Positions 2,971-25,465 of a stretch of DNA of 37,403 nt are shown here, in pieces. How positions within the stretch are numbered: the first letter of the stretch is position 1; each line of letters opens with the position of its first letter. The position numbers were made by a program, and so were the translations under genes. The stretch covers positions 1 to 37,403 of the forward strand of contig JACPLZ010000031.1 in the NCBI GenBank assembly GCA_016186245.1. Reading direction: 5' to 3'. The stretch comes from Candidatus Peregrinibacteria bacterium. Its GTDB lineage: Bacteria > Patescibacteriota > Gracilibacteria > UBA1369 > LOWO2-01-FULL-3. Under the pieces are notes generated by a model. That model searched no databases, had not been told where the DNA came from, and saw only the letters and a list, made by a program, of their open reading frames with translations.

Positions 2971-3741
2971 CTACTCCGGCAGATTTCCCATCCCTCTCTT
3001 CGCCCCCTTTCTCTTCTTTCTGCCCCTATTCCTCCTCAGTTTTTCATCAATCCCTTTCTGGGAAGGCTGCATAACAACATTTCTCGCCCATGGCTCATCG
3101 GTCAAAAGTTCCCCTTTGAATTGCTGCAGAAGCCAATCCAGGAATTCGGTCTGTTCTGCCAGCTGTCTTTTACTAAAACTTCCGCGAAAATCAACATTAT
3201 AAGCAATGGAAGGAACTCCATCGCGCCCGGCCGGCACGTCTATAATTTCCACCGGCCTGCCCAATGCCCATGGAGCACAAAATACCAGCGGTGCCCACCG
3301 TTCATATTTTTCCATCAGTTTTTCCTGTTTACTTAAACCGCCAAACACATCCCCTCCAAATAATCTGGCCAAAAACCCTGGAGCAGCGCTGGCTTCAGCT
3401 TCATCTTTTCCACTGCGACCAATATAAAACTCAGGAATTTTCAGGCTGACATTATGTCCATTTACCACAACATCAACATTTTTTTCCTTAGCCATAAACA
3501 TGGCCATCACCAGTTTATCCAGCACCCCTTCCAGCTCATCTGGCCACGATAAACCAATATCTTCAGCGGTAAAATCAACCGAGCCGGTAACTCTGGCAAT
3601 TCTGTCCAGCACCTCCTGCCGCAAAGCATTTGGATCCAGTCCCCCCCTATAGTGATCCAAAATTTTATATGAATCATATAGATGGGTAATAAACCCTTCC
3701 ATATCGCTAAGAAGCTGGGACACTCTCGCTCTGCATTCCAC
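2971..3741 (-). CDS. C-terminal part of a divergent RSH-like protein (frame-broken from the upstream ORF)
   Basis: VECRARVSQLLSDMEGFITHLYDSYK resembles the RSH synthetase motif 'VEVQIRT..MH..AE.G.AAHW.YK'; continuous with the 643-aa ORF if one T is added at the T7 tract. Confidence 0.5.
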   Translation of the reverse strand: MECRARVSQLLSDMEGFITHLYDSYKILDHYRGGLDPNALRQEVLDRIARVTGSVDFTAEDIGLSWPDELEGVLDKLVMAMFMAKEKNVDVVVNGHNVSLKIPEFYIGRSGKDEAEASAAPGFLARLFGGDVFGGLSKQEKLMEKYERWAPLVFCAPWALGRPVEIIDVPAGRDGVPSIAYNVDFRGSFSKRQLAEQTEFLDWLLQQFKGELLTDEPWARNVVMQPSQKGIDEKLRRNRGRKKRKGAKRGMGNLPE

Positions 3742-5438
3742 TGCCTTTGCGTCCGAATAAAAAAAGAGTGCTCATCCGTAGAAACACCCATTCGGTTTTC
3801 ACCAAGCCTTCTGCCCAACACGCTATTAAACTCGCCCCTGCCCGCCCATTGATGCTTAAGAGGCTTTGGGAAAAGACGCTTAAACACTTCTGCGGCCGCA
3901 AAACACATATTTGGATCATTCCTGACACACCTGAAAATTACAAAATTCTGCAAAGCCTGTTCATACCTCCCATCTCTAGCCATATCCTCGGCAATCTCTC
4001 CATCTTCATACCTGAAACCAACAGGCCGGTAATTCAGAATATAATCAACCCCCTCAGTCATAGTAGAATCCATCATTTCTCTCTTCATCTCATCCTGAAA
4101 TTCAGCGCTAAATTCACGTTTAAGACCAGGCCAATGTTGCCCATCCTTCAAAACAACCGGCCCCATATCCCGTCTATCACGTTTAGATCTGAGAACAATA
4201 CGCCTCTCTCTCTCATCCGGATCACGAAAAATCAGGTAATCATACAGCCAATCCGCAACATTCCACATTCTCATGGCCACAGCGCAAGCCATAAATGTAT
4301 AAATTGTATCCGCCGCCACTTCCTGAAATTTTTCCTCGGAAACTTCAGCCCCGCCACTCATGCCTGCTCTTATTTTTTGAATAAAAGTTCTTGTATTATC
4401 AAGCCTGTCGCTAATTTTTATAATTATGGCCCTCATTGCGGAAAATCTCTGCGCCCGCTTATGCCCCAAAACACCGTAAAACATTTCCACTATCTGCCTG
4501 GCCTTATTGTCGCCGGATTTTGTCACAAGCTTAACAAGCGCCTCTATAGACACCATTCTGGAAAAGAAAACAGCCGCTCCGGAAACATTGCCTGGCTGGC
4601 CGGAAACACCGCCAAGAGAAGAACACACCCACGAAAAATGCTTATCGAAACTAGCACCATGCCTTTCTCTAAGAGACTCGGCATGCGCCTTCGGAACCCA
4701 AACCGGACCATCCTTTCCAAAAAATTTCGGATTCAAATCTTCAACGCTGGAATTAAGCAAACCTGCTATACCCACCGGCCAATCTTCCAGCACATCATGT
4801 AGCATAGCCGCAATAACTGTCTGTTCACAGAAAAAACGACATTTTTGGACAACATTTCCAACTGCGCTGGCAACAGGATGATAGGCATAATCCTGGGAAT
4901 CACCTTTTGCATCCTTTTCACCTTTTCTTTTGGCGCCATAATGAATCAAAAAAACATAATATGCAGCAACCTTCAAATTTTCCCGCCAGTTAGCGGAAAA
5001 ATTAGAACAGTCCTCTGACCCCCTGATAACTTCTTCCACTTTATCAAGGTCTCCGTCAAAACGCCTGACAAATTCCTCAAACCGCTTGTTCAGATCTTTG
5101 CCAATAGCCTCATTCTTGAACAATATTGATTTCTCAAATCCAAACCGCACCACAAGATCATTAAGCAGTAAAAAAGCCTGCTGCATAGCGCTATTGTTTT
5201 TTTCAAAAACCTCCCTGTACAAAAATCCGTCCCTATTTTCACCCCCCAAAAATTTGGAAAAACAATCGGATAAAACACTTCTGCTGACAGCCGCATTGAC
5301 GGCATCGGCAAACCCCTTCATTACAGGGACATCTGCAACATCAACCACCTGCGCCCGGCCATCAACAGAAACTTCATCTTCATGCACACCATCCTGATTG
5401 TCATTCCGCTCCTTTGCCATATAAAAACCATAAGGCAT
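3507..5438 (-). CDS. RelA/SpoT-like (RSH) HD-domain protein; ORF leaves the inferred correct frame near 3760
   Basis: HPVASAVGNVVQKCRFFCEQTVIAAMLHDVLEDW (HD motif) and KISDRLDNTRTF (compare KLADRLHNMRT). Confidence 0.6.
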   Translation of the reverse strand: MPYGFYMAKERNDNQDGVHEDEVSVDGRAQVVDVADVPVMKGFADAVNAAVSRSVLSDCFSKFLGGENRDGFLYREVFEKNNSAMQQAFLLLNDLVVRFGFEKSILFKNEAIGKDLNKRFEEFVRRFDGDLDKVEEVIRGSEDCSNFSANWRENLKVAAYYVFLIHYGAKRKGEKDAKGDSQDYAYHPVASAVGNVVQKCRFFCEQTVIAAMLHDVLEDWPVGIAGLLNSSVEDLNPKFFGKDGPVWVPKAHAESLRERHGASFDKHFSWVCSSLGGVSGQPGNVSGAAVFFSRMVSIEALVKLVTKSGDNKARQIVEMFYGVLGHKRAQRFSAMRAIIIKISDRLDNTRTFIQKIRAGMSGGAEVSEEKFQEVAADTIYTFMACAVAMRMWNVADWLYDYLIFRDPDERERRIVLRSKRDRRDMGPVVLKDGQHWPGLKREFSAEFQDEMKREMMDSTMTEGVDYILNYRPVGFRYEDGEIAEDMARDGRYEQALQNFVIFRCVRNDPNMCFAAAEVFKRLFPKPLKHQWAGRGEFNSVLGRRLGENRMGVSTDEHSFFIRTQRQWNAERECPSFLAIWKGLLPIYMIHIKFWITIGGDWIQMLCGRRCWTELPELPARLILPLKILVYRGQMSWKGCWINW

Positions 5439-5511: not shown

Positions 5512-6141
5512 TCAGCAATTTTTCAGATTTGCTATCGCCACGCTCCTATCATCAGATTCAAAAATATATGTTCCGGCAATCATAATATTTGCTCCAGCTT
5601 CTCTGCATATCCTTGCCGTTTTATCATCAATTCCCCCGTCAACACTTATATCTCCATCATACCCCAAATCCCTTAGCTGCCTTATTTTTGGCATCATGTC
5701 CTTCATGAATTTTTGCCCGCCAAACCCGGGCTCAACCGTCATAATCAAAATTTGATCAACCATCTCCAGCACGCCTTCCAAAACTTCCACGCCGGTTTTT
5801 GGCCTCACGGATACCCCGTTCTTCACCCCCAAATCCCTGATGGTACCCAAAACTCCCTTTAAATCTTTGCACGCCTCCGCGTGGACAATCAAAGTATCGG
5901 CGCCGGCCTTCACAAAATCCTCAAAAAAATCCCACGGATGTTCTATCATCAAATGCACATCAATCGGCAATTTTGTTTTAATCCATTTCATCACCGGCGC
6001 CCCAAAACTTATGTTAGGCACAAAATGCCCATCCATCACATCATAGTGCAACCGATCACTGTACGGCTCTACCTCCTTAATTTCCTCATTCAGCCTGCCG
6101 AAATCAGCCGACAGAATTGAAGGTGCGACTTGTATATTCAT
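5512..6141 (-). CDS. rpe: Ribulose-phosphate 3-epimerase
   Basis: APSILSADFGRL, HYDVMDGHFVPNISFG, MTVEPGFGGQKF, SVDGGI motifs. Confidence 0.97.
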   Translation of the reverse strand: MNIQVAPSILSADFGRLNEEIKEVEPYSDRLHYDVMDGHFVPNISFGAPVMKWIKTKLPIDVHLMIEHPWDFFEDFVKAGADTLIVHAEACKDLKGVLGTIRDLGVKNGVSVRPKTGVEVLEGVLEMVDQILIMTVEPGFGGQKFMKDMMPKIRQLRDLGYDGDISVDGGIDDKTARICREAGANIMIAGTYIFESDDRSVAIANLKNC

Positions 6142-6599
6142 CCTATATGGCTTAATTTTTCCACCCTGCGCACATGCCTTTCCTCTCCGTTTTCAAAATC
6201 CGTTTCAAAAAATTTATCCGCAATTTTTTTCATCGCATCAATATCGGTCAGACGCGCTCCCATAGTTAAAACATTGGCATTGTTGTGCTTTCTGGCCATT
6301 TCGGCCATTTCTGCAGTTACGGCATTTACAGCCCTGATATCTTTAAACTTGTTAACCGCCATCGCCACGCCTATTCCGGTGCCGCAAATCAAAACACCAA
6401 AAGATTCAGGATGCTCCACAACTTTTTCACCGACTTCCCGCGCGACATCTGGATAATCACAGGATTCCTCTGTGAAACACCCCAAATCGGTTACCTCAAA
6501 ACCTTTCTGCTGCAGATAAGCTTTTAAGTCCTCCTTGGCTTTGAATCCGGCATGATCCGCGCCTATAAAAACCAGCTTTTTTTTCTTTTCTCCAATCAT
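6138..6599 (-). CDS. rpiB: Ribose 5-phosphate isomerase B
   Basis: IGADHAGFKAKEDL, GVLICGTGIGVAMAVNK, RKHNNANVLTMGAR. Confidence 0.96.
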   Translation of the reverse strand: MIGEKKKKLVFIGADHAGFKAKEDLKAYLQQKGFEVTDLGCFTEESCDYPDVAREVGEKVVEHPESFGVLICGTGIGVAMAVNKFKDIRAVNAVTAEMAEMARKHNNANVLTMGARLTDIDAMKKIADKFFETDFENGEERHVRRVEKLSHIG

Positions 6600-7540
6600 T
6601 GCAAAACAGTGGTAACGGATTTTGATTCATAAACATTCCGGATTATTCTGGAAAGAAGAGGGGCAACGGACAAAACTTTTAACCCCCGGAATTGTTTTTC
6701 TTTCGGAATAGGAATTGTATTTGTTACTACCACCTCCTTGAAACCGGCGCCACTAAGTCTTTCCACGGCCGGATCGGAAAAAACAGCATGGGTCGCCGCC
6801 AAATAAACTTCATCGGCCGCACCATGACTCCTCAGCGCTTTTACCGCCGCGGCTACGCTGCCGGCAGTATCAATCATATCATCGAAAATCACACAATTCC
6901 TTCCACTTACATCACCTATAACATGATGAACCTCCGCTTTGTTATGAGCAGGCCTGGATTTATGAATAATCGCCAGATCCGCCCCCAGCAAGTCGGCAAA
7001 CTTCTTGGCATCCTTTGCCCCTCCGGCATCGGGAGAAACGACCATCAGATTCCTGATTTTTTTCTTTTTAAAATAATCGGCAAACAGACGCCGCGTATCC
7101 AGGTTATCCATCGGAACATTAAAAAATCCCTGCTCCTGGTCGCTATGAAGTTTCAGAGCAATCACATGCCCAGCCCCGGCCGCCGACAACAAATCTGCGA
7201 CCAGTTTTGCAGAAATAGGCTCTCTCGGCGTGGCCACACGATCCTGTCTGGAGTACCCATAATGTGGCATGACAACGTGAATATGATAGGCAAAAGATCT
7301 CTTCAGAGCATCAATCATAATAAAAAGTTCCATCAAATCTTCGTTCACGTTGCCAGAAGCGGTTTGAAGAACAAACACATCGCAACCCCTGACGCTCTCC
7401 TTTGGCTTGGCATAAATCTCTCCGCAGGCAAAACGCGAAACTTCCATTTCCGAAAGTTTGACCTTCATATTTTTAGCGATTTCTTTCGCCAATTCCGGAT
7501 GGGAAGACCCGGAGAAGAATTTAATTGGATGCTGGGCCAT
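6596..7540 (-). CDS. prs: Ribose-phosphate pyrophosphokinase
   Basis: FSGSSHPELAKEIA, MPHYGYSRQDR, VVSPDAGGAKDAKKFA, VIFDDMIDTAGSVAAA. Confidence 0.97.
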   Translation of the reverse strand: MAQHPIKFFSGSSHPELAKEIAKNMKVKLSEMEVSRFACGEIYAKPKESVRGCDVFVLQTASGNVNEDLMELFIMIDALKRSFAYHIHVVMPHYGYSRQDRVATPREPISAKLVADLLSAAGAGHVIALKLHSDQEQGFFNVPMDNLDTRRLFADYFKKKKIRNLMVVSPDAGGAKDAKKFADLLGADLAIIHKSRPAHNKAEVHHVIGDVSGRNCVIFDDMIDTAGSVAAAVKALRSHGAADEVYLAATHAVFSDPAVERLSGAGFKEVVVTNTIPIPKEKQFRGLKVLSVAPLLSRIIRNVYESKSVTTVLQ

Positions 7541-7596: not shown

Positions 7597-8052
7597 TTAA
7601 GGAACCCCTGAAAAATTAAAATAAACCGGTCCAAACTCCTCAAAATTACCATAAAGATACCCACTGTCATGGCGAGCCAAGCCTGCCCTGAGCCCGCCGA
7701 AGGGAACCATGACCCTGATATTCGGCATAGCGCCAACAACCTCCGCATCCCTCACTCCATCACCAACCGCAAAAATCTTCACATTCAAATTTGGAATACA
7801 TATTCCATCACGCAATTGGGCATAGGCATTTGCAATTTTTGCAGATGAACAAACGATTATTGGCATTTTTCCCCTAGCCGCAAAACCGCACGCGGCCATC
7901 ATCATGCTCTGTTCCCCGGAAAAATTAAACGCCCTGTCCTTAAACCGGTTCACAAAATTCTCCATGCCGGCAAATTCATCGCAATACAAAACAACCGCAT
8001 TATTGAATCTGTTTACAATTTTCAACAAATCATCCTGTAAATTTTCCATCAC
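7597..8052 (-). CDS. Transketolase-like pyrimidine-domain subunit, shortened and lacking the C-terminal domain
   Basis: FNFSGEQSMMMAACGFAARGKMPIIVCSSAKIANAYAQLRDGICIPNLNVKIFAVGDGV..; stops after GPVYFNFSGVP where a C-terminal domain would follow; 4-nt overlap with the upstream TPP-domain ORF. Confidence 0.7.
   Translation of the reverse strand: MMENLQDDLLKIVNRFNNAVVLYCDEFAGMENFVNRFKDRAFNFSGEQSMMMAACGFAARGKMPIIVCSSAKIANAYAQLRDGICIPNLNVKIFAVGDGVRDAEVVGAMPNIRVMVPFGGLRAGLARHDSGYLYGNFEEFGPVYFNFSGVP
7666..7713. repeat. 48-bp REP-like palindromic element inside the transketolase-like ORF
   Basis: GTCATGG...gcctgccctgagcccgccgaaggg...CCATGAC; 7-bp perfect terminal inverted repeats. Confidence 0.65.
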
Positions 8053-8885
8053 GCCGATACGTTAAATTTTGAAAGTATTTCCAGCATCTCTCCTTCACTC
8101 AAAATAGCATTCAGATAGCCCGTTTTCCTTTCAGCAAATTCAATACCCTTTCCGGCAATTGTATGACACCAGATACACGACGGCTTTCTGACTGTTTTAA
8201 ACGATTTATCCAAACCGGATAAAAGCTGGTCAAAATTATGTCCATCGATCACCTGCGCAACATCCCAGCCAAAAACTTTAAATTTGTCCTGCACCTGGCC
8301 AACATGGATTTTTACGGGCTGGGAAACATCAACCTCCACGGCAGGATCATCAACAAAAACAATCAGATTGTCGAGTCTATGGTAAGCCGCAGCAATAATC
8401 GCCTCCCATACCTGCCCCTGCCTCAATTCTTCAGCGCTCAAAAGCACAAAAACTTTGTTTCCTTTTTTTTCCATTTTCAATGCCAGAACCAATCCCACGG
8501 CAAAAGACAGCCCGTAACCTTTAGACAAAATTGTGCCGGTCACTCCGGGCGCTTTACCACTCGGGTACTCTTTTAGAATAGAACCGGCCCGCCCCAAAAA
8601 AGCCAACTCCGATTTGTCAAAAAATCCCAAATCCGCCAAAACGGCATATTGCAGCGGAGCAGCTTCCACCTTTGATAAAATAAGGTAATCCTGGCCGCTC
8701 CAGCCCGGCTTTGTCGGATCAACTTTCATTATTTTTCGGCCAAAAATTTCCCCATAATACAGGGCGGTCAAAATTTCCACGCTCGACATTAAATTTCCCA
8801 CATTTCCAACACCAGCCTTATAAACAGACTCCAAAGCGAGCAGTCGTATTTGAGCAGCTTTTTTTTCAAGCATGTCCTTCATCAA
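8049..8885 (-). CDS. Transketolase-like TPP-domain subunit with degenerate active-site motifs
   Basis: Overall transketolase N-terminal fold signature (VEILTALYYG, EGQVWEA-like RQGQVWEAIIAAAYHRLDNL, FGWDVAQVIDGHNFDQ) but canonical GH, GSLGQG, GDGE and N motifs are substituted. Confidence 0.8.
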   Translation of the reverse strand: MMKDMLEKKAAQIRLLALESVYKAGVGNVGNLMSSVEILTALYYGEIFGRKIMKVDPTKPGWSGQDYLILSKVEAAPLQYAVLADLGFFDKSELAFLGRAGSILKEYPSGKAPGVTGTILSKGYGLSFAVGLVLALKMEKKGNKVFVLLSAEELRQGQVWEAIIAAAYHRLDNLIVFVDDPAVEVDVSQPVKIHVGQVQDKFKVFGWDVAQVIDGHNFDQLLSGLDKSFKTVRKPSCIWCHTIAGKGIEFAERKTGYLNAILSEGEMLEILSKFNVSA

Positions 8886-8898
8886 TTAAGTTCCTTAG

Positions 8899-9018
8899 GA
8901 AGCCCTGAAAATCGTTGCAATGCGAGGAAACAAACTATTTCTGACCGAGCCGTACTTACCGGTACGGCGAGTAAGAAATAGTGCAGATGACGAAGCAGTG
9001 TACGATTTTCAGAGCTTC
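8899..9018. repeat. Nested-palindrome element, copy A
   Basis: Outer arms gaagccctgaaaatcgt/acgattttcagagcttc (16/17 paired), middle stem actatttc/gaaatagt, core gccgtacttaccggtacggc (8949-8968). Confidence 0.85.
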
Positions 9019-9019
9019 A

Positions 9020-9502
9020 TCAGGCATTCAGTTCATCCTCCGCATATACATTCACATATTCGGACTTGTCGTAACCGTGGATTTCCCCTCCTTTAAAAAA
9101 TCTCTTAACTTCGGCCGCGGCATTGGCAACACTATCCGAAGCATGGATTACATTGCAGCTCACACTCATCGAAAAATCACCGCGGATTGAGCCGGCCTCG
9201 GCCTCACGACCCTTTGTAATACCGGTAATTTTTCTCACGGTATTAACCACATCCAGTCCCTCCCAGCACATCGCAATCACCGGAGTGCTCTGCATAAATT
9301 TCGCCAACCCGGGAAAAAACGGCTTATCGGCAAGATGGGCATAATGTTCGCGCAAAACCGCCTCATCCAGCGCCATCATTTTCACGCCGACAAGCTTCAG
9401 CCCCTTCTGCTCAAAACGTGAAGTAATCGCTCCAAACAATCCGCGCTGTATGGCATCCGGCTTTACAAGGACAAGAGTTTGTTCCAGCACACCTTTTGGC
9501 AT
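9020..9502 (-). CDS. ndk: Nucleoside diphosphate kinase
   Basis: MPKGVLEQTLVLVKPDAIQRGLFG...GSIRGDFSMSVSCNVIHASDS; start set at MPKGV rather than the upstream ATG at 9577. Confidence 0.95.
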   Translation of the reverse strand: MPKGVLEQTLVLVKPDAIQRGLFGAITSRFEQKGLKLVGVKMMALDEAVLREHYAHLADKPFFPGLAKFMQSTPVIAMCWEGLDVVNTVRKITGITKGREAEAGSIRGDFSMSVSCNVIHASDSVANAAAEVKRFFKGGEIHGYDKSEYVNVYAEDELNA

Positions 9503-9573
9503 ATCGATTCTGGTTAAAAAGCGCCGGCATTGTAACGCGTACATTTTAAATTTGCAATCACGGGCAATGTAAC

Positions 9574-9642
9574 ACAAGGAAGCAAGCCATTTTCGACTGA
9601 GCCGTACTTACTGGTACGGCGAATAGAAAATGGCGCAGCTGA
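9574..9642. repeat. Nested-palindrome element, copy B
   Basis: Middle stem gccattttc/gaaaatggc, core gccgtacttactggtacggc (9601-9620); near-identical to copy C 105 bp away; weaker outer stem. Confidence 0.8.
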
Positions 9643-9653
9643 CACGGTAACAT

Positions 9654-9777
9654 CTGAAATTTTAAAAATTGATGCAATGCAAGGAAGCAAGCCATTTTCG
9701 ACTGAGCCGTACTTACCGGTACGGCGAATAGAAAATGGCGCAGCTGACGAAGCAGTGCACAATTTTTAAAATTTCAG
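9654..9777. repeat. Nested-palindrome element, copy C
   Basis: Outer arms ctgaaattttaaaaattg/caatttttaaaatttcag (18/18), middle stem gccattttc/gaaaatggc, core 9706-9725; right arm overlaps the M16 gene 3' end. Confidence 0.85.
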
Positions 9778-11028
9778 CAACTTCTCAAATCGCTCTTTCT
9801 CGCCATACGGCCCAATAACAGCCAATTTCATTCCCTCCTCTTTGAAAATATCTTTTGCCACCCTCGCAACATCCGCAACCGCCACCGCGTCAATTTTTTT
9901 GGTAATTTCCGCAGGATCCACCGCCCCGCCCCTTAACAATTCATATTTCGCCAACAAATGGGCAAATTCCTCCGAATCCTCCAGATTCAAAATCATTTTT
10001 CCTTTCAAATATGATTTTGCTTTCTTCAGTTCCGCCTCCGGCACATCTTCATCTCTCACTTTCCTGTATTCCTCAATAATACCGGTAATTGCCTGATCTA
10101 TGCGCTTTAAATCCACCCCTGCGTTTGTGACCAGCAGGCCGCTATCCGCATAACTGTCAACCGATGTATGAATATAATATGCCAATCCATGCGCCTCTCT
10201 CACACCCAAAAACATTCTGCTGCTCATATTTCCTCCTAAAATCACCGATAACAATTTCAAAGCCCAGTAATCCGGATGACTTTCCTTATAAGCCGGAAAT
10301 CCCAATGCCACATGCGCCTGTTCCGTCTTTTTTTCCTTCAAAGAAAGCCTGCCGCCATCAATTTTTTTCAACCCGTCAAAATTATAGGCTTTTTCCCCTT
10401 CCAGCCGGTCAAAACATCCACCGATCATTTCCACCACATTTCCATGATCAACATTTCCAGCAACGGCAATCACAAGATTATCTGGCGTATACAATTTTCC
10501 ATTATACTTTTTAAAATCCTCATGCATTACGGTATTTATCAGCTCTTTTGTGCCTATTTGATCCCACCCGAGCGGCTGATTTCCAAAAACAAGCTCCTCA
10601 AAATTCCAGCCGATCTGATACATTGGCGTATCCTGATACATATTAAATTCTTCCAAAATTACCCCGCGTTCCTTCTCAATTTCCACCTGCGGGAATTTTG
10701 CATTAAGAAGCATGTCCGACAGCACATCGCAGGCCACTTTAAAATTTTCCCCCGCAACCTTCACATAGTAACCGGCATATTCCTTTCCGGTAAAAGCATT
10801 AAATTCCCCGCCAACGGAATCAATCGCCTCCGAAACTTCTTTGGTGTTTTTATACTTGTTTCCACCCTTAAAAAACATATGCTCAAGGAAATGGGAAATA
10901 CCCCTGATTTCCTGAGTCTCATATCTGCTGCCGGCCCCTACAAGAATAAGCACAGTCACGGCCTGTGTGCCGGAAAGCTTTTCCGTCACCACTCTTATGC
11001 CATTTTCCAGAGTTGTTTTTCTAAACAT
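9766..11028 (-). CDS. M16 family zinc metalloprotease (processing-protease-like)
   Basis: HFLEHMFFKG (HxxEH), 420 aa, ERGVILEEFNMYQDTP, LKKAKSYLKGKMILNLEDS. Confidence 0.95.
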   Translation of the reverse strand: MFRKTTLENGIRVVTEKLSGTQAVTVLILVGAGSRYETQEIRGISHFLEHMFFKGGNKYKNTKEVSEAIDSVGGEFNAFTGKEYAGYYVKVAGENFKVACDVLSDMLLNAKFPQVEIEKERGVILEEFNMYQDTPMYQIGWNFEELVFGNQPLGWDQIGTKELINTVMHEDFKKYNGKLYTPDNLVIAVAGNVDHGNVVEMIGGCFDRLEGEKAYNFDGLKKIDGGRLSLKEKKTEQAHVALGFPAYKESHPDYWALKLLSVILGGNMSSRMFLGVREAHGLAYYIHTSVDSYADSGLLVTNAGVDLKRIDQAITGIIEEYRKVRDEDVPEAELKKAKSYLKGKMILNLEDSEEFAHLLAKYELLRGGAVDPAEITKKIDAVAVADVARVAKDIFKEEGMKLAVIGPYGEKERFEKLLKF

Positions 11029-17573: not shown

Positions 17574-19311
<1,738 letters not shown>

Positions 19312-19334
<23 letters not shown>

Positions 19335-19893
19335 GGACGCAGAAATGTTTTGGCTGGATTGCAATATCGGTTCCAAAGTTACCATGAAATATCCGGCAAT
19401 TTACCTCATGGGATCCGGTGCGCGCGGCGAAGTTCAATCACTCGCATTCTCAGGCAAAAATCAGCACCAGGATGCCGGCGCAAAAATCATCCATGCCGCT
19501 CCAAACACCAGTTCTAAAATCGTTTCCAAATCAATTTCCAAAGCCTCCGGCCACAGCACTTACCGCGGACTGCTTCAGGTAAATAAAGGCGCGACTAACG
19601 TAAAAAGTCACGTTTCCTGCGATGCTCTGTTGTTGGATGAAAATTCCCGTTCTGATACTTATCCAACAATGAAAATAGAAGAAGATGATGTCTCCATCGC
19701 CCACGAAGCCACTGTCGCAAAAATCGGCGAAGAGCAATTATTTTATTTAAGATCCCGCGGACTTACGGAAGAAGAAGCAGCCAGCATGATCGTCAACGGT
19801 TTTGCCAAACCGATCATCAAACAATTGCCCATGGAATACGCGATAGAACTAAACCGGCTTATCGAGATGGAAATGGAGGGCAGTGTTGGATAA
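19312..19893 (+). CDS. sufB: SufB C-extein fragment (TTG-started open frame)
   Basis: [75 protein letters not shown] is the SufB C-terminal core. Confidence 0.9.
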
Positions 19894-25340: not shown

Positions 25341-25465
25341 GGAAAACTGCTGAAAATTGCTATTTTACAAGGAAACAAAGCATTTTCGACTGAGCCGTAC
25401 TTACCGGTACGGCGAATAGAAAATGGTGCGGATGACGCAGTAAAATACAATTTTCAGCAGTTTCC
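25341..25465. repeat. Nested-palindrome element, copy D
   Basis: Outer arms ggaaaactgctgaaaattgctattttac/gtaaaatacaattttcagcagtttcc, middle stem cattttc/gaaaatg, core 25394-25413. Confidence 0.85.

Follow-up and report, generated by a model that had tools for sequence, protein, structure and literature searches.

The split transketolase of Carboxydothermus hydrogenoformans (ChTK) is an active enzyme with two structures (PDB 6YAK and 6YAJ) and with its TPP and metal ligands named (PMC7661550). Human TKTL1 is a transketolase paralogue with a damaged cofactor region. Heterodimers of TKTL1 with transketolase are reported to accumulate ribose-5-phosphate (PMC6555833), and the inactivity of TKTL1 is a matter of dispute (PMC6334435).

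Here, we describe a pair of adjacent genes, tkN and tkC, in a contig of a Candidatus Peregrinibacteria bacterium; the whole 37,403-nucleotide stretch analysed is referred to as the window. The pair descends from a split transketolase and has lost nearly all of the residues that bind substrate, TPP and metal. It is nonetheless held under strong purifying selection, and probably encodes a pseudo-transketolase complex. A search of open-access full text on transketolase and TPP pseudoenzymes, split transketolase, and pseudoenzymes of Patescibacteria found no earlier description of such a pair.

Identity and genomic context of the tkN-tkC pair

The two genes lie in a compact cluster, ndk-tkN-tkC-prs-rpiB-rpe, in which all genes are transcribed in the same direction and whose order is conserved among relatives. 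The features are:

9020..9577, minus strand: ndk, nucleoside diphosphate kinase, conserved upstream neighbour (Pfam, locus comparison)
8049..8885, minus strand: tkN, alpha (PP-domain) subunit of a split transketolase, TPP and substrate motifs erased (Pfam/NCBIfam, AlphaFold2, PDB fold match, residue table)
7597..8052, minus strand: tkC, beta subunit cut down to the Pyr domain (alignment, AlphaFold2, 6YAJ beta fold match, tkC-family profile match to 6YAJ)
6596..7540, minus strand: prs, ribose-phosphate diphosphokinase, conserved downstream neighbour (Pfam/NCBIfam, locus comparison)
6138..6599, minus strand: rpiB, ribose-5-phosphate isomerase B, conserved neighbour (Pfam/NCBIfam, locus comparison)
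5512..6141, minus strand: rpe, ribulose-phosphate 3-epimerase, conserved neighbour (Pfam/NCBIfam, locus comparison)

Translation of tkN starts at ATG 8882 or TTG 8885, either of which suits the Shine-Dalgarno-like AAGGA directly upstream. The tkN product belongs to the transketolase PP-domain family (Pfam Transketolase_N, E 4e-28), with NF004559, transketolase, as its best NCBIfam model (E 1.7e-50); identity as DXS was rejected, as the corresponding value is 1.1e-8 and the TPP motif is missing. The tkC product is only 151 aa long and ends where the Pyr domain ends. It matches Transket_pyr weakly (E 0.013, below the Pfam cut-off), and dxs and transketolase models at E about 1e-5. AlphaFold2 models built from alignments of the window and locus proteins have a pLDDT of 89.3 and pTM of 0.90 for tkN, and 88.4 and 0.85 for tkC; their best PDB matches are the 6YAK alpha chain (TMq 0.90) and the 6YAJ beta chain (TMq about 0.8), respectively, and the ChTK chains are likewise the best PDB matches by sequence. 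The PP and Pyr domains are encoded by adjacent separate genes that are orthologous to those of known split enzymes.

Elsewhere in the same genome there is a full-length transketolase gene with intact catalytic motifs, scoring 652 bits against an NF004556 equivalog cut-off of 575, and located directly downstream of a gene read from its sequence as glucose-6-phosphate isomerase.

Several other features of the window were noted. Just after rpe (3507-5438, minus strand) lies a gene for a protein of 643 aa in which an HD domain is weakly matched (PF13328, below cut-off), and relatives of this protein occupy the same cluster at two other loci (L103 and L113). A dispersed repeat of ~115 nt flanks ndk (8908-9022, 9560-9674 and 9665-9779, and also 25395-25415); its core, CCGTACTTACCGGTACGGCGA, has 23 genome copies at <=3 mismatches and none in a reversed control. 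The sufB gene (17574-19893, plus strand) contains an intein with a LAGLIDADG domain; the C-terminal part of SufB is encoded in a different frame by an overlapping ORF, and SUFBD_core profile positions 33-69 are missing, so that the gene seems to be broken where intein and extein meet, which may be an assembly error.

Loss of active-site residues

The substrate-binding residues are taken to be those known from yeast and E. coli transketolase. This assignment is partly restated in PMC7661550, and the ChTK residue numbering used here reproduces every ligand named in that paper. Alignment of tkN to the 6YAK alpha chain shows replacement of SGHPGG by VGNVGN, SKGHA by SKVEA, GHP by EYP and GSLGQG by LSKGYG, and this and the multiple alignments show GDGE replaced by SAEE, DYN by DDP, and WHG by YLN. 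At the level of individual residues the changes are His70 to Glu, Gly117 to Leu, Leu119 to Lys, Asp148 to Ala, Gly149 to Glu, Asn178 to Pro and Lys240 to Ala, such that four key TPP/metal ligands – Asp148, Asn178, His70 and Gly117 – are gone; Lys68 and Glu150 are retained. Three further substrate histidines of the alpha chain have become Asn, Tyr and Leu. In tkC, the equivalent of Glu55, the Pyr-domain glutamate that activates TPP, is kept (within GEQ), Phe80 is replaced by Lys, and both the substrate loop (GEDGATHQ in the intact enzyme) and the C-terminal domain are absent. None of the substrate-binding His/Arg/Asp positions that were checked is kept (0/3 alpha and 0/6 beta). The sites are located as follows:

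8802..8804, minus strand: tkN N28, at the site of the substrate His (yeast H30) in SGHPGG (alignments, residue table)
8664..8666, minus strand: tkN E74, at the site of the TPP/substrate His (ChTK His70, yeast H69) (alignment, residue table)
8565..8567, minus strand: tkN Y107, at the site of the substrate His (yeast H103) in GHP (alignments, residue table)
8520..8528, minus strand: tkN L120-S-K122, at the site of ChTK Gly117-Ser-Leu119, which contacts the aminopyrimidine (alignment, residue table)
8427..8438, minus strand: SAEE replacing GDGE, with metal ligand Asp148 to Ala and Gly149 to Glu (alignments, residue table)
8343..8351, minus strand: DDP replacing DxN, with metal/TPP ligand Asn178 to Pro (alignments, residue table)
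8112..8114, minus strand: tkN L258, at the site of the substrate His (yeast H263) in the WHG motif (alignments, residue table)
7912..7914, minus strand: tkC E47, the retained Pyr-domain Glu (ChTK Glu55, yeast E418) (alignment, residue table)

These comparisons agree closely with an earlier, sequence-only reading of this DNA. The motif replacements that it listed in the TPP-domain ORF, including the loss of WHG, hold residue by residue, and tkN falls in the transketolase family by HMM; an intact GDG...N motif elsewhere in the tkN ORF, which that reading had named as counter-evidence, was sought in the multiple alignment and residue table and is absent. It had correctly described the partner as shortened and lacking the C-terminal domain with its Glu kept, understating the loss insofar as the substrate loop is gone too. 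Both ORFs are present, and their proposed 4-nt overlap applies with a GTG start of tkC (1 nt with the ATG at 8049). To the reported clustering with rpe, rpiB and prs we can add ndk upstream, and the second, canonical tkt for which it proposed a search is the full-length gene described above.

Purifying selection on both genes

In same-genus pairs of degenerate genomes of the window's family, omega for tkN is 0.02-0.12 apart from one pair at 0.18, and omega for tkC is 0.03-0.16 apart from one pair at 0.24; these values lie in the range spanned by prs, rpiB, rpe and ndk. Because the collection contains no same-genus relative of the window, a codon branch model was fitted with two taxon sets. Omega=1 was rejected on the window branch for both tkN (LRT 25.8 and 23.1) and tkC (LRT 17.5 and 21.1), the window-branch omega values themselves being rough because synonymous sites are saturated. 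Relative to prs, tkN has evolved about 2 times and tkC about 2.5 times faster than in the intact family f8. The reading frames are intact across the family genomes, the sole apparent break (in G017) being an assembly N-run; with the pattern also common to many genomes, sequencing error or a frameshift artefact was rejected as its source.

The relaxation is confined to particular positions. Among tkN positions that are >=95% conserved in intact enzymes, 11 have fallen below 50% in the family, all of them in or beside active-site motifs (SGHPGGS, SKGH, GHP, GSL, the Glu after GDGE, KGKG and WHG), and 30 others are still >=90% conserved. Eight tkN positions are newly conserved (A11, N31, M33, Y44, L126, Q199, W239 and C240), of which N31 is Ser in most relatives, and W239 and C240 are already present in the intact genomes of the family. 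In the family's tkN no polar or catalytic-looking site has become conserved, and tkC has no newly conserved position.

Distribution of intact and degenerate pairs

tkN is present in 28/30 genomes of the window's family, with tkC following directly or after a short gap wherever tkN is not at a contig end. The substrate site is destroyed in 26 of these 28, and is intact in G001 and G018; the tkN tree places these two intact copies with f8, and the tree of neighbouring genes places them with f1. Because most of the 26 degenerate family genomes still keep GDGE and the Asn, the window represents an extreme of a gradient and is not typical; more of the GDG/Asn positions are lost in the window, G008, G007, G010 and G019, and both trees group the window with G008. 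Seven family genomes, including the close relatives G008 and G010, have another residue in place of Glu55.

Across the order, the same locus encodes an intact split transketolase in families f5, f8 and f14, most of f15, and genome G071, and a degraded pair in f2, f4, f6, f9, two of f10, f12, f13 and one of f15. An alpha chain with every listed motif is accompanied by an already degraded beta chain in G045 and G081, showing that the beta chain can degrade first. The partner gene in f4 encodes a mini-Pyr of about 115-125 aa, and f4 members are found at E 7e-18 to 2e-9 by a tkC profile that itself contains the G032 member; the beta chain of f4 was shortened to this form independently. On the neighbour-gene and tkN trees the distribution of intact and degenerate pairs requires 5 changes by Fitch parsimony, or 6-7 if reversal is forbidden. 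Degeneration has thus arisen about 5-7 times independently, a number that is approximate because backbone support of the trees is low. A foreign origin of tkN was rejected, as both gene order and the gene tree associate it with the split transketolase native to the order.

A second type of split transketolase was also observed at seven loci (L050-L054, L056 and L057), with Ser-Glu-Gly in place of Gly-Asp-Gly, and thus Glu at the position of the metal-ligand Asp; its other listed residues are canonical, and the metal site is unusual.

Across the order, a second transketolase gene is present in 40/46 degenerate genomes, and so accompanies loss often, if not always. In G072 and G077 (99% and 98% complete) the degenerate pair is the only transketolase-like gene found, and a back-up enzyme is therefore no general rule. 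The simple proposition that loss follows a second transketolase was rejected, the association being weak (intact, 10 with and 7 without; degenerate, 40 with and 6 without; Fisher P 0.03, kinship ignored). At the G072 and G077 loci (L081 and L083), tkC is on the opposite strand to tkN.

Discussion

Genes whose catalytic motifs are gone, which are redundant with a second transketolase, and which evolve faster than their intact relatives could be pseudogenes in decay that have yet to lose their frames. However, no frame is broken in 28 family genomes, loss is restricted to active-site positions, and selection is strongly purifying rather than at a dN/dS near 1 (omega 0.02-0.2 within genera, and rejection of omega=1 for tkN and tkC alike on the window branch), such that decay is very improbable and was rejected. 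It is equally hard to credit that the pair serves solely to couple prs-rpiB-rpe translationally or transcriptionally while its protein goes unused: the overlap of the two genes and their position immediately before prs in a compact cluster would suit this idea, but constraint at the amino acid level, with conserved structural residues, would not be expected from coupling alone. Nor do we see much prospect that the pair is still an active transketolase, or another TPP enzyme with unusual cofactor binding. Lys68, Glu150, the Pyr-domain Glu55 and the transketolase fold are all retained, but Asp148, Asn178, His70, Gly117 and all of the substrate His/Arg residues checked are absent, and the genome has a canonical transketolase.

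An alternative that deserves more weight, although we think it unlikely, is that the old cleft now has a different catalytic or ligand-binding activity, independent of TPP in the window, with those relatives that keep GDGE, Asn and Glu possibly being TPP enzymes with new substrates. The strong purifying selection, the retention of TPP core residues and loss of substrate residues in most family members, and the two genomes (G072 and G077) with no other transketolase-like gene are all consistent with such a change. Against it, the family has no newly conserved polar or catalytic-looking site, active-site positions differ widely among genera, and G008, G010 and similar close relatives have lost even Glu55.

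With the substrate and TPP-metal sites lost, and the folds and gene pairing under purifying selection, tkN and tkC are best regarded as a pseudo-transketolase complex, a reading that we hold with good confidence: they are homologues of an enzyme that lack its catalytic residues, and they are kept by selection rather than decaying. As judged from its residues, the pair presumably has no transketolase activity, and the two chains presumably still form a heteromer. The sequence-only reading had proposed a pseudoenzyme, and had taken the clustering and intact frames to argue against simple decay; residue loss and purifying selection support both points well. Its suggestion that the complex is repurposed stands insofar as the pair is kept without the old chemistry, and the new role itself is one that we infer.

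The ancestor was probably an ordinary split-gene transketolase, with the PP domain in the alpha chain and the Pyr and C-terminal domains in the beta chain. The substrate site was lost in the lineage, and the canonical TPP/metal site also on the window's own branch, while both folds and the two-gene arrangement remained under strong purifying selection. The pair may bind a product of the cluster (Prs, RpiB or Rpe) or the canonical transketolase, as reported for human TKTL1, and by analogy its most likely role, proposed here tentatively, would be non-catalytic control or scaffolding of ribose-5-phosphate/PRPP supply. It is possible, if rather doubtful, that the split transketolase of the ribose-phosphate cluster has been turned several times independently within the order into a regulatory or scaffold complex that does without TPP. 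The active site would have been released each time, and several lineages would also have cut the beta chain back to a minimal Pyr domain, leaving ribose-5-phosphate/PRPP supply under the control of a dead transketolase. Because the pair is still linked to prs-rpiB-rpe, a role in controlling PRPP supply can be tested directly.

Pairs within the order form a natural series that runs from those with all ligands intact to those that have lost nearly all of them, and that began independently about five times or more. Such a series should be useful for understanding how enzymes turn into pseudoenzymes and why one is kept in a small genome (0.7-1.5 Mb). Because tkN scores above the Pfam cut-off, automatic annotation would label it a transketolase, which affects pathway reconstructions of such reduced genomes.

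Among known systems, ChTK resembles the window pair in having its PP and Pyr domains on two chains, but differs in possessing every TPP and substrate residue, a beta C-terminal domain and measured activity (PMC7661550). The intact split transketolases of other families (e.g. G033, G036, G049, G068 and G071) belong to the same gene family and occupy the same place in ndk-tkN-tkC-prs-rpiB-rpe; unlike the window pair, they have the ChTK residue or a conservative variant at every ligand and substrate position listed, and, where the gene is covered by the contig, a tkC of 311-346 aa, compared to 151 aa. DXS gives weak family matches to both ORFs and is the next fold match of the Pyr domain after the ChTK beta chain, but requires the TPP motif that tkN lacks, and tkN matches transketolase much more strongly. 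Human TKTL1 provides the closest precedent: it shares with the window pair its derivation as a transketolase paralogue and its damaged cofactor region, but is a single-chain vertebrate protein altered by a 38-residue deletion rather than by site-by-site erosion (PMC6555833, PMC3485151 and PMC6334435).
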